In this document: piece after piece, positions 59,279 to 64,000 of the stretch
How positions within the stretch are numbered: the stretch's first letter is position 1
Layout: each line of letters opens with the position of its first letter
Notes under the pieces: generated by a model
Database searches by the model: none
The model's input: only the letters and a program-made list of their open reading frames with translations
Told to the model about the DNA's origin: nothing
Made by a program: the position numbers and the translations under genes
Source: Methanosalsum zhilinae DSM 4017
GTDB taxonomy: Archaea > Halobacteriota > Methanosarcinia > Methanosarcinales > Methanosarcinaceae
Length of the DNA: 64,000 nucleotides
Assembly (NCBI RefSeq): GCF_000217995.1
Contig: NC_015676.1
Coordinates: forward strand, 1,843,708 to 1,907,707
Direction of reading: 5' to 3'

Positions 59279-59518
59279 ATGGATGAACTGATAGGATTTG
59301 TTACAGGAAGCAATAACCGCCAGAAATTGCTGGGATTGCTGGGATCGAAGGGGGAAGCAGATGCTGACCGCATTGCAAAGATGATGCATGTGTTCCGTCC
59401 ATCTGTGGAGAAAATACTCGATGAACTCATGGAGAGGAAACTTGTAGAGAAAAAAGGTGAGGTATATCAACTGACAGAACTCGGGGAAGAGGTCAACGGA
59501 CGCATTCATGCTCTTTGA
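59279..59518 (+). CDS. Small winged-helix DNA-binding protein
   Basis: The 79-residue protein is a single winged helix: NNRQKLLGLLGSKGEADADRIAKMMHVFRPSVEKILDELMERKLVEKKGEVYQLTELG. It resembles archaeal MarR/ArsR-like one-domain regulators with no sensor part. The target is not apparent; neighbours are the SRP RNA and, convergently, another small wHTH gene. Confidence 0.75.
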   Translation: MDELIGFVTGSNNRQKLLGLLGSKGEADADRIAKMMHVFRPSVEKILDELMERKLVEKKGEVYQLTELGEEVNGRIHAL

Positions 59519-59612: not shown

Positions 59613-59906
59613 TTAAGTATTCTGTCCAGATGCTGCAGCTCTGGCAGTACCATTATCCTTTACTCCATAGAGAATCTGTCTTGCATCCCTGAAGCAGAAC
59701 TTTTCCATCAGGAAATTACCCCCTTTAAGCCTGCTTAACGCGTATCTTACAGTCCTTGGTGGAAGCTGACTTTCTCTGGCAATTTCTTTTGGGGTCAGAA
59801 ATCCCCTGTATTCAAGAACTTTGTATACAAGCTTTGCAGATGGTGGCATATCTTCAATGCCCTTATGACTGTTCTCCCGATTGCTGATATCTGTTTCGTT
59901 ATACAT
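59613..59906 (-). CDS. Small winged-helix regulator, divergent from the sensor kinase
   Basis: The protein has about 97 residues, with a disordered start and a MarR-like winged helix: MPPSAKLVYKVLEYRGFLTPKEIARESQLPPRTVRYALSRLKGGNFLMEKFCFRDARQILYGV. Its promoter region is shared with the kinase gene and contains a 15-bp palindrome, so it may regulate both. I use ATG 59906; a GTG at 59915 is possible. Confidence 0.72.
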   Translation of the reverse strand: MYNETDISNRENSHKGIEDMPPSAKLVYKVLEYRGFLTPKEIARESQLPPRTVRYALSRLKGGNFLMEKFCFRDARQILYGVKDNGTARAAASGQNT

Positions 59907-59962
59907 TTTATTCACTGACCTGTCAACAAAAACGATCCCTCATTTTGCATTCACCATCATCA

Positions 59963-60120: not shown

Positions 60121-61767
60121 ATGAATGATAGAGACTATCGAGAATTAGATAAAATAATTAACAGCAGTCCTGCAGTCATATTTCTGTGGAAGGCTGAAAA
60201 CGGCTGGCCTGTTGAATTTGTATCAGATAATATTCTCCAGTTTGGATATGAAGCTGAAGAGTTTATCTCAGGAAAATTGAAATTTGCGGATATAATACAC
60301 CCGCATGATCTGGGCAAGGTTGTTAAGCTTTTTTCAAAATCAAATATGACTGATTATCCAGGATTTACGATCGATTACCGAATAATAACCAAATCCGGTG
60401 ATGTAAGATGGGTTAATGAGAGAACACTGATTCGCCGTGATGATGATGGAAACCTGATCAATTATGAGGGTATTATTTTTGATGTTACAGATCGCAAAAA
60501 ATCAGAACATGAGATGAAACTGAATAAGGAACTTATGGAATCGCTTCTGAAAATGAACCAGATGATCGGTGCAACTTTGCAGGAAATCACTGATTTTGCC
60601 CGTGAAGAAGCCGTCAGGCTTACAGATAGTAAACTGGGGTATCTGGCATTCACAAATGCTGATGAAAGTGTCCTTACAATGCATTCATGGTCAAAAAATG
60701 CAATGAAGGAATGTAAGATCGAAGATAAGAAATTTGTTTATCCTCTAAAGACCACAGGTCTCTGGGGAGAGTCGGTAAGGCAAAGGAAACCGGTGATCAC
60801 TAATGATTACAGTGAACCTGATCCGTTGAAAAAAGGATATCCTGAGGGTCATGTAGAACTGAAAAATCATGTAACGGTACCCATATTTGATGGGGATCGC
60901 ATCGTTGGAGTTGTGGGAGCAGGCAATAAATTAAGTGATTACGACGATTTTGATTCTTTAAAACTTACACTGCTTATACAGAATATGTGGAAACTGATAC
61001 AGCGAAAACACCTTCTTGAAGCTCTTAACAAATATTCCCGGGACTTATCCAAGGCGAATGCTGAACTTAAATCGTTTACAAAGATAAAAAAAGAATTCAT
61101 TGAAGGACAACGTCTAAAGCAATCACAGGGTGATTACAATAAACTACTCCAGGACGACATGCTTGAGTCAATTGAAGAACAGCACAGGAATTCAATGGCA
61201 AAATCTTTGATGTTCTCTGAAAAACTTAATCGTCTGATCGATTCTCTGATGTTTTTAAGTACTGAGCAGGCAGGAAAACTTGATTATCATTTTGGTCCGG
61301 TGAATATTGAAAAAATAGTGAACAATTCCCTTATGAATTTGATTCTCATAATAGATGAAAAGGATATTGAGATTGAGAATGAGGTTCCTGCCGATTTACC
61401 TTCTGTTAGGGCTGATAGTGAGAAACTGACAAACGTTTTGATCAATCTTCTTGAAAATGCGGCAAAATATAACGAACCCGGAGGAAAGATTGTTATTAAT
61501 ATATGGAATGAGGATAACTATGTGCGTTTGAGCATAAGGGATACTGGAAAAGGTATTCCTGAGAAGATAATCCCCCATCTGTTCCAGAGTATATACCAGG
61601 TCGATGATTCCATAACCCGCAGATATGAAGGTATTGAATCTGGACTATATCTATGCAAAAAAGTGATAGATGCACATGGTGGAAAGATCTGGATTGAAAG
61701 TGAACTGGGTGAGGGAACAACAGTTCATGTAAAACTCCCTGTATATGAAAATGTATCGCAGGCCTGA
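60121..61767 (+). CDS. PAS-GAF sensor kinase of the MsmS/RdmS type
   Basis: The 548-residue cytosolic protein has a PAS domain with PAC tail (about 10-125), a GAF domain (about 140-295), a coiled linker, a dimerisation region (about 320-400) and a HATPase domain. The ATPase has N-box LINLLENAAKYNEPGG (439-455), G1 DTGKGIP (474-480) and an altered G2 GIESGLYL (504-511). The expected H-box after KKEFI (323-327) reads EGQRLKQSQGD, with no HExxxP histidine. The GAF domain has a cysteine at 198 (KECKIED). Methanosarcina kinases next to mts genes (MsmS, RdmS) are heme- or thiol-dependent redox sensors. The msr and mts genes follow downstream. Confidence 0.85.
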   Translation: MNDRDYRELDKIINSSPAVIFLWKAENGWPVEFVSDNILQFGYEAEEFISGKLKFADIIHPHDLGKVVKLFSKSNMTDYPGFTIDYRIITKSGDVRWVNERTLIRRDDDGNLINYEGIIFDVTDRKKSEHEMKLNKELMESLLKMNQMIGATLQEITDFAREEAVRLTDSKLGYLAFTNADESVLTMHSWSKNAMKECKIEDKKFVYPLKTTGLWGESVRQRKPVITNDYSEPDPLKKGYPEGHVELKNHVTVPIFDGDRIVGVVGAGNKLSDYDDFDSLKLTLLIQNMWKLIQRKHLLEALNKYSRDLSKANAELKSFTKIKKEFIEGQRLKQSQGDYNKLLQDDMLESIEEQHRNSMAKSLMFSEKLNRLIDSLMFLSTEQAGKLDYHFGPVNIEKIVNNSLMNLILIIDEKDIEIENEVPADLPSVRADSEKLTNVLINLLENAAKYNEPGGKIVINIWNEDNYVRLSIRDTGKGIPEKIIPHLFQSIYQVDDSITRRYEGIESGLYLCKKVIDAHGGKIWIESELGEGTTVHVKLPVYENVSQA

Positions 61768-61824: not shown

Positions 61825-62616
61825 ATGAAAGCTGAACTACTTGGAACTCTTTTTCTGTCTGAAAAGAGAAAAAACCTTCTGTTATTGCTCAAAGAAGGTG
61901 AAAAAGACATAGATGAGATCAAAAGAGCCCTTAATGTAAACACAAGTGCCATTATGACCCAGATTAACATTCTGATGAGCCAGGGCCTGATTGTATATCA
62001 GAATAATGAATACGGACTTTCTTCTATGGGTGGGGTGATCGTTAAGAAAATGCAGCCCCTACTGGAGACCCTGAACCTCTATGAAGATAACAGACTTTAC
62101 TGGGAGAACCATAAGATAGAGGCCCTTCCATGTCATCTTTTAAATAGAATAGAGGAACTGGGTAGCTGTGAATTTGTCGAGCCAGATCTTGATAGGATGT
62201 ATGACCTTCCAAAGAGGTTTGAAGAAAATCTGGAAAAATCAAAATATATTCATGAGGTATCATCATACTTCAGCCCTGCTTATTCAGGTCTTTATAAGAG
62301 ACTTGTAGAAAAGGGAATTGAGATTTCATTGATCCTTACAGAAACTGTTTTTGAAAGACTGAAGAATGAATATCAATCAGACCTGGCCTTTTATCTGGGT
62401 TCTGGCTATGTTAACCTGTATGTTTGTACGGAGAAGATAGAACTGGCATCGGGGGTAGTTACTGATCGGTTCCTTGCATTATCTCTTTTCTACAACACAG
62501 GAATTTATCACAATCACACAATGATGAGCTTTGAATCCAGTGCAATCAATTGGGGCAAGGATCTTTTTTCCTATTATCTGGATATATCTAGAAAAATATC
62601 ACAGGATGATTTCTGA
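61825..62616 (+). CDS. Msr-type methyltransferase regulator (HTH plus FilR1/DUF1724 domain)
   Basis: The 263-residue protein has an N-terminal winged helix (KRKNLLLLLKEGEKDIDEIKRALNVNTSAIMTQINILMSQGLI) and a C-terminal domain with RFEENLEKSKYIHEVSSYFSP and LVEKGIEISLILTETVFERL, the pattern of the methanogenesis-regulator FilR1/DUF1724 domain. The Msr proteins of Methanosarcina acetivorans have this layout and control methanol and methylsulfide methyltransferase genes. GGAGTGG precedes the ATG. It lies between the kinase (57 bases away) and the fused methyltransferase gene (256 bases away), which is its likely target. Confidence 0.87.
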   Translation: MKAELLGTLFLSEKRKNLLLLLKEGEKDIDEIKRALNVNTSAIMTQINILMSQGLIVYQNNEYGLSSMGGVIVKKMQPLLETLNLYEDNRLYWENHKIEALPCHLLNRIEELGSCEFVEPDLDRMYDLPKRFEENLEKSKYIHEVSSYFSPAYSGLYKRLVEKGIEISLILTETVFERLKNEYQSDLAFYLGSGYVNLYVCTEKIELASGVVTDRFLALSLFYNTGIYHNHTMMSFESSAINWGKDLFSYYLDISRKISQDDF

Positions 62617-62872: not shown

Positions 62873-64000
62873 ATGAAAGAAGAAATACTGAACCAATTAG
62901 CGGATGCTGTAGTTTCTGGTAGTAAGGAAAGTGCAGCAGAGCTTTCAAAAAAAGCTCTTGAGGAAGGAATAGACCCCCAGGAAGCACTGGTGAACGGGCT
63001 TGCTAAAGGTATGAACATAATGAGTGATAAGTATGAGACTGGAGAAGCCTTTGTCCCTCATCTATTGATCGCATCCGGTGCAATGTATGCTGGTATGGAA
63101 GTGCTTATACCCCACCTAAAGAAAGAAGGAGCTGGCAGACCTGCAACAGGGGTTATAGGTACTATTGAAGGAGATGTACATGACATAGGCAAGAACCTTG
63201 TCAAAACAATGCTCAGCGCAGCAGGATTTAATATGATAGATCTTGGTAACGATGTTCCTCTTGAGGACTTTGTGAAGGCTGCAAAGGAAAATAAGGCTGA
63301 TATCATATCCATGAGTGCACTGATGACTACTACAATGGTGGGCATGGAAAAGGTCATTGAAAGCCTTCAGGAAGAAGGTATCAGGGATGCGGTAAAGGTA
63401 ATGGTCGGTGGAGCACCTGTTTCCGAGGAATTTGCAGAAAAGATTGGTGCTGATTCAACCCATCCTGATTCTATGGGTGCAGCTGACTGGGCTACAAATG
63501 CTGTAAAAAGTATGCCACCTGCAGATGAGAGATGGACTGAGGAGAAGATAAGCCTTGGAAAGGTCAAATACAGGGATGTTCTGGCAAAGAAAAAAGCCAA
63601 GGTTGGAGCTGCAAAGGATATTGGCCTTGAGACTGCCCGTGAGATCATAGATGAGTTTGAAAAAGTAGGTGTAAAGAAGAAAGAGGAAATGACCCATATA
63701 GACAGGGTAGTCTCATCCCTTGGAGACAAAAAGGTTGACCGTCTTCCTGTATACCCACTTGCCTGTGGAGTTCTGAGAAAGTTCGTACCTACAACCTATA
63801 GAGAATATACAACTGATCCGGAAATGTTTGCCCAGAGTGCCTACCTGGGAGTAAAATACATGGACCTTGACATGTTTGTAGGTCTTGTTGATCTGTCAAT
63901 TACATCCTCTGACCTTGGATGTAAGGTAAGTATACCGGATGAGGATACTCCTGCGTCAGTGGGTCACCTGGATGACTATGATAAAATAGAAATTCCCGAG
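62873..64000 (+). CDS. Fused corrinoid protein/methylcobalamin:CoM methyltransferase, Mts type (5' part)
   Basis: The first 376 residues are present and the frame runs off the window end. Residues 1-210 are a corrinoid protein: a helical cap (ILNQLADAVVSGSKESAAELSKKALEEG), then the B12-binding motif D101-x-H103-x2-G106 in EGDVHDIGKNLV, followed by MSALMTTTM and GGAPVSEEFAEKIGAD. After a linker, a UroD/MtaA-like domain begins near 240 (MTHIDRVVSSLGDKKVDRLPVYPLACG). Such fusions are the MtsD/MtsF/MtsH proteins of Methanosarcina, which move methyl groups between methylated sulfur compounds and coenzyme M. The zinc-binding C-terminus lies outside the window. Confidence 0.88.
   Translation, partial: MKEEILNQLADAVVSGSKESAAELSKKALEEGIDPQEALVNGLAKGMNIMSDKYETGEAFVPHLLIASGAMYAGMEVLIPHLKKEGAGRPATGVIGTIEGDVHDIGKNLVKTMLSAAGFNMIDLGNDVPLEDFVKAAKENKADIISMSALMTTTMVGMEKVIESLQEEGIRDAVKVMVGGAPVSEEFAEKIGADSTHPDSMGAADWATNAVKSMPPADERWTEEKISLGKVKYRDVLAKKKAKVGAAKDIGLETAREIIDEFEKVGVKKKEEMTHIDRVVSSLGDKKVDRLPVYPLACGVLRKFVPTTYREYTTDPEMFAQSAYLGVKYMDLDMFVGLVDLSITSSDLGCKVSIPDEDTPASVGHLDDYDKIEIPE

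Follow-up and report, generated by a model that had tools for sequence, protein, structure and literature searches.

The closest described relatives of the kinase studied here are RdmS (MA0863) and MsmS of Methanosarcina acetivorans. Georgiev et al. (2025) describe kinases of this kind, MA_type 2, as having no H-box (PMC11784639). Tyrosine autophosphorylation under oxidizing conditions was reported earlier for both proteins (reviewed in PMC6944256; PMC7278568). However, the claim was withdrawn for RdmS in 2025: according to that article, the modification was cysteine-dependent and non-specific, occurred in non-kinase proteins as well, and gave a signal only when the stop buffer contained no reductant (PMC11784639). 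In the same article, RdmS, the one protein for which such data are presented, bound and hydrolyzed ATP in vitro and had no autokinase activity. The authors proposed an undiscovered protein substrate instead, and the article reports no substrate (PMC11784639).

Two further systems are related in part. FilR1 of Methanosaeta harundinacea is built as wHTH-DUF1724-REC (PMC5847659), and shares the wHTH and DUF1724 (FilR1_middle) domains with the Msr regulators. FilI, its partner, autophosphorylates as ordinary kinases do, and FilR1 carries a REC domain (PMC11784639; PMC5847659), whereas the pair examined here has neither the His nor REC. The Caulobacter pseudo-histidine kinase DivL offers another likeness, as a histidine-kinase fold that regulates without kinase activity (PMC4211667). 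In DivL the H-box frame is preserved, Tyr taking the place of His, and the N, G1, F and G2 boxes are all normal, whereas the present kinase has lost the H-box and has a changed G2. Further, DivL binds a REC protein, whereas the neighbor of the present kinase has no REC domain.

The kinase gene lies in a window of 64,000 nucleotides, the whole stretch of Methanosalsum zhilinae DSM 4017 DNA that we analyzed (Table 1). A partial copy of the protein in a Methanosalsum sp. MAG is 96% identical. Pfam assigned PAS_3, GAF_2 and HATPase_c domains to the window kinase and found no HisKA domain in it. When the whole genome (one contig of 2,138,444 bases) was searched for HisKA at E<=10, there was no match at 60121-61767, and nine other kinases scored above the cut-off. 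Residues 323-338 read KKEFIEGQRLKQSQGD, without HExxxP, and EGQRLKQSQGD stands where relatives with an H-box have NVSHELKTPL. Nor does the window kinase have a DivL-type Tyr in an otherwise normal H-box: the residue there is Leu332, which lies in a variable-length spacer. The G2 box is EGIESGLY, compared with GGTGLGLY in relatives, and departs from the GxGxG pattern (GIESG). The N-box Asn446, the G1 motif DTGKGI and the F-box Phe488 are kept. No REC domain was found inside the window; all nine REC places in the genome fall outside 1843708-1907707. Of the features of a canonical two-component system, the window kinase has neither the H-box His, nor a GxGxG G2 box, nor a nearby REC regulator. 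These results agree with a preliminary description of this DNA, which had claimed a missing H-box, intact N and G1 boxes, an altered G2 box and no response regulator in the window. Residues 292-548 were modelled with AlphaFold from the single sequence, but confidence was low (pLDDT 47, pTM 0.30) and the model was not used as evidence.

Table 1. Features of the kinase-Msr-mts locus; positions are those of the window.
Feature	Positions	Strand	Size or basis
H-box-less sensor kinase, RdmS/MsmS (MA_type 2) family, PAS-GAF-DHp remnant-HATPase_c	60121..61767	+	548 aa
PAS_3 domain, residues 33-119	60217..60477	+	Pfam, 60.6 bits
GAF_2 domain, residues 151-293	60571..60999	+	Pfam, 86.7 bits
Cys198 of window kinase (GAF)	60712..60714	+	aligned with MsmS residue 656
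EGQRLKQSQGD, residues 328-338, in the place of the H-box	61102..61134	+	alignment
His355 of window kinase	61183..61185	+	acceptor proposed in the preliminary description
HATPase_c domain, residues 432-541	61414..61743	+	Pfam, 99.7 bits
N-box Asn446, retained	61456..61458	+	alignment
G1 box DTGKGIP, intact	61540..61560	+	alignment
Changed G2 box EGIESGLY	61627..61650	+	alignment
Msr regulator, ArsR-type HTH + FilR1_middle (PF08350), no REC	61825..62616	+	Pfam
mtsD/H-like fused corrinoid/methyltransferase gene, running past the window end	62873..64000	+	full 636 aa, L031:3581-5491

The kinship with RdmS and MsmS suggested in the preliminary description was borne out by alignment. The window kinase was 53% identical, over residues 102-540, to a Methanosarcina kinase that we identified as RdmS because an in-frame TAG falls at codon 216 when counting starts at its Met, the same position as named by RdmS_O216K in the literature (PMC7542351). 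RdmS resembles the window kinase in the absent H-box, the Cys at the position of Cys198 and the changed G2 box (LESG), and is likewise followed by an Msr gene and, further down, by mtsD. In contrast to the window kinase, which has one PAS domain, one GAF domain and no TAG, RdmS is a longer protein with more N-terminal sensor sequence and the pyrrolysine codon 216. A second M. acetivorans kinase, encoded at L034:7568-8899, was 51% identical, and its Cys aligned with Cys198 counts as residue 656. Molitor et al. in 2013 are said to have placed the heme-attachment Cys of MsmS at C656, and on this ground we take the second kinase to be MsmS. MsmS, a heme-based MA_type 2 sensor, also lacks the H-box, has the LESG motif in the G2 region and is followed by an Msr gene and an mtsH-like gene. 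However, its N-box Asn is replaced by His, whereas the window kinase keeps Asn446. Genes similar to mtsD and mtsH stand close to the RdmS and MsmS loci, in agreement with the gene numbers MA0859/MA0863 and MA4558/MA4561. Judged from sequence, the window kinase is a member of the MA_type 2 (RdmS/MsmS) kinases, a sensor kind already published.

We took 121 distinct homologues of the kinase domain from genomes of the Methanosarcinaceae and sorted them strictly by the H-box, which was absent from 71 (H-less) and present in 50 (H-box relatives). The G2 box was changed in 71/71 H-less domains and normal in 50/50 H-box relatives (Fisher p ~3e-35; the rows are related, and the p value shows only that the split is not noise). 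Because the same absence holds in 71 homologues, the missing H-box is not due to chance or sequencing error. The lost H-box and the changed G2 box are features of the whole clade and not an oddity of the window kinase. One badly aligned H-less domain (L107) was excluded from residue counts, for which n = 70. The spacer that replaces the H-box comprised 16-24 aligned residues in H-less domains, and the same stretch was 24 residues in 50/50 H-box relatives. Some genus g11 kinases (e.g., L055 and L104) have a spacer His in a GHD motif; we rejected it as an H-box, as it is not aligned with the H-box His and is replaced in sister sequences. The Cys198 position was occupied by Cys in 69/70 H-less relatives and also in 31/33 close H-box relatives, and the conserved GAF Cys therefore does not define the H-less group.

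An unrooted tree was constructed from 42 thinned rows; its 395 columns contained neither the H-box nor the G2 box. All H-less rows, including RdmS and MsmS, grouped on one side of a single branch (support 100/98), and the H/no-H state changed once in 100% of the bootstrap trees. Histidine kinases had the H-box ancestrally, so that one loss of it would be the natural reading of this tree. Deep sampling covered the family Methanosarcinaceae; among 296 genomes sampled from the phylum, strong whole-length matches were found almost only in this family, and most matches outside it covered the GAF part. A DNA pattern for the G2 motif, searched across the order, gave scattered and uninformative matches. 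Further, in-frame TAG codons, likely encoding pyrrolysine, were seen at differing positions in L007, L042, L043, L044, L049 and L050, as at codon 216 of RdmS; in the H-less kinases L042-L044 the TAG takes the place of Trp190, a conserved residue in the GAF motif MHSWS.

The adenine and Mg/phosphate sides of the ATP site, assigned according to the HATPase_c fold, were conserved to different degrees. On the adenine side, D474 and G476 were each present in 70/70 H-less relatives and G478 in 67/70. On the Mg/phosphate side, N446 was present in 55/70, K449 in 36/70 and the lid Gly508 in 44/70, each being present in 50/50 H-box relatives. The N-box Asn was replaced by S, D, Y, G or H in 15/70 H-less relatives, including MsmS (His), and the second H-less kinase of the window genome (L032) has Gly at this position; the members that have lost this Asn may be catalytically dead. 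The GxG of G1 was broken in three H-less members (L045-L047). The earlier statement of intact ATP-binding boxes is right for N and G1 of the window kinase, but the clade overall is losing phosphate-side residues. In G2, the canonical Gly-Leu was replaced by Glu506 (61/70) and Ser507 (65/70), with Gly506 in 50/50 H-box relatives. Because Glu506 and Ser507 are conserved, the ATP lid appears to have been remodelled under constraint and not simply to have decayed. We infer that the H-less clade has probably retained nucleotide binding and relaxed its phosphate chemistry, the latter with the limit that RdmS hydrolyzes ATP in vitro (PMC11784639). The accessible part of that article does not discuss the replacement of the N-box Asn in MsmS and others.

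The preliminary description had named His355 or a tyrosine as a substitute phospho-acceptor, and here conservation argued against it. His355 was present in the window kinase only, the position being Q in 60/70 H-less relatives, and the DHp region of 15/70 contained no His at all. Tyr339 was found in 25/70. The well-conserved Tyr/His columns of the H-less relatives were 305, 378, 389, 492, 502, 510, 519 and 536. The Tyr columns 305, 378, 389, 492, 502 and 510 were about equally conserved in H-box relatives, and the window kinase itself has Phe at column 378. Because all eight columns are well conserved in H-box relatives too, they appear to be structural. No His or Tyr conserved specifically in the H-less clade was found (n = 70). 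His355, Tyr339 and the other tyrosines were ruled out as acceptors by this pattern.

In the protein encoded at 61825-62616, Pfam detected only wHTH and DUF1724, and the neighbor is thus a REC-less Msr protein, as previously described. Among the FilR1_middle frames in the window genome and in M. acetivorans, none was long enough to hold a REC domain as well. The mts gene of the window encodes a B12-binding/URO-D fusion that is 72% identical to that of the MtsD gene near rdmS in M. acetivorans. An Msr gene was next downstream on the same strand in 57/71 H-less kinases (58 if L060, at +658, is included) vs. 0/50 H-box relatives; after thinning to <80% identity, the values were 21/24 and 0/18. An mtsD/H-like or corrinoid gene lay downstream on the same strand in 42/43 H-less/Msr pairs with enough downstream DNA, the exception being L050, whose mts match is on the other side. 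Five of the 42 (L032, L037 and L042-L044) matched mts weakly, at about 240-280 bits, and the downstream gene of L032 encodes a stand-alone corrinoid protein according to Pfam. In genus g13, 12/12 genomes with a strong H-less kinase match had an mts gene at >=70% identity; among the remaining genomes of the genus, only G087 had such a gene, which starts 577 bases from the contig end. The distance matrices of kinase and Msr were correlated (Mantel r = 0.90, 0/2000 permutations); part of this correlation comes from the common inheritance of linked genes. The window genome has only two kinases of the H-less type, and both are beside an Msr gene. Together, the kinase, msr and mts genes make up a conserved unit.

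In the DNA examined, 13 H-less kinases had no adjacent Msr gene, and 10 of them had an FGE-sulfatase-like gene instead; Msr is therefore not the sole possible partner. The FGE-sulfatase-like neighbors belong to genus g11 (L053, L055, L104, L105, L106, L108, L111, L112, L113 and L114) and are ~240-266 aa long; the SUMF1 domain was assigned by Pfam in L055 and the others by a similar start. L055 also has a RACo-like corrinoid activator gene upstream. The H-less kinases of genus g11 have possibly changed partner.

Other genes surround the window locus. Upstream of the kinase are a short winged-helix-like ORF (59279-59518, +; recognized by eye) and a 100-aa winged-helix-like ORF (59613-59915, -) with weak Pfam HTH matches. 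Past the mts gene, L031:5773-10965 encodes a hydantoinase/oxoprolinase-like protein and a Cpn60/TCP1 chaperonin, followed by a URO-D methyltransferase and a CobW-like GTPase. A 564-aa PAS-GAF-HisKA-HATPase_c paralogue (L031:11046-12740), 49% identical to the window kinase and with H-box and G2 intact, lies ~9 kb downstream and is a natural control for biochemistry.

On balance, we lean towards the reading that the window kinase is a non-relay sensor, which would steer its REC-less Msr partner by nucleotide-dependent contact. It would be a redox/heme-type sensor in the cytoplasm, belonging to the RdmS/MsmS family and working outside the histidine-aspartate relay. The shape of the dimer would be altered by the PAS/GAF sensors, a heme probably being attached to Cys198, and nucleotide in the HATPase_c domain would work as a timer or conformational ligand. 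Direct contact would carry the signal to the adjoining Msr protein, and Msr would then switch the downstream mts methyl-sulfide methyltransferase gene. The heme input via Cys198 and the output on mts are suggested by analogy with MsmS/RdmS and by the gene order. Contact fits better than phosphotransfer because the kinase lacks the donor His and Msr lacks the acceptor REC. The "unconventional relay" of the preliminary description was rightly called unconventional but is probably not a relay, and its other proposal, conformational signalling to Msr, gains support as a live option.

Phosphotransfer by another route was weighed against this reading. The kinase could place phosphate on one of its own residues other than an H-box His, such as His355, a tyrosine or a site dependent on cysteine, and then relay it, as the tyrosine autophosphorylation once reported for MsmS and RdmS would suggest (PMC6944256; PMC7278568). 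However, that claim was withdrawn (PMC11784639), the conservation of His355, Tyr339 and the DHp histidines described above offers no common site, and the window and Msr contain no REC acceptor; we consider such a relay highly improbable. The His might instead be donated by a separate protein, or the kinase might have a phosphatase role, in a heterodimer with an H-box paralogue (e.g., L031:11046-12740) that tunes a REC-only regulator. The nearby paralogue with its normal H-box and G2 favors this idea, as do the histidine-kinase-like proteins DivL and RetS among the PDB matches, DivL being a regulator without kinase activity. The conserved neighbor, however, is Msr, which is neither an H-box kinase nor a REC protein, and the segment with which ordinary kinases dock REC is replaced by the variable spacer, so that this arrangement also appears improbable.

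The suggestion of Georgiev et al. (2025) has more in its favor: the window kinase would be an active protein kinase that phosphorylates Msr or another partner directly, in a MAP-kinase-like manner, with no autophosphorylated intermediate. Because RdmS hydrolyzes ATP (PMC11784639) and 55/70 H-less relatives, including the window kinase, keep the N-box Asn, there is room for catalysis on another substrate. The retained Asn446, G1 box and Phe488 are in keeping with this, and the conserved, non-random change in G2 suggests that the lid retains a function. On the other hand, the N-box Asn is lost in 15/70, including MsmS, and the G1 GxG is broken in L045-L047. We know of no HATPase_c-group kinase that phosphorylates a separate protein without phospho-His. 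Further, the article reports no substrate (PMC11784639). We regard direct phosphorylation of a partner as rather unlikely. Extending the contact reading to the family is more tentative: a Methanosarcinaceae lineage of histidine-kinase-derived sensors may have dropped phosphotransfer in step with receiver-less regulators, leaving a contact pair in which nucleotide would be a conformational ligand only.

The question at stake is how RdmS-type sensors signal without a histidine, now that the tyrosine answer has been withdrawn and a substrate kinase proposed in its place (PMC11784639). The comparative data narrow the options: the loss of the H-box is coupled with a remade ATP lid, Msr is the conserved neighbor, no conserved substitute acceptor was found among the H-less relatives, and the Mg/phosphate side is eroding in several members, including MsmS. 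Signalling by contact thereby becomes directly testable with one kinase-Msr pair. The answer also matters for understanding how methanogens turn on the production of methane from dimethyl sulfide and methanethiol.
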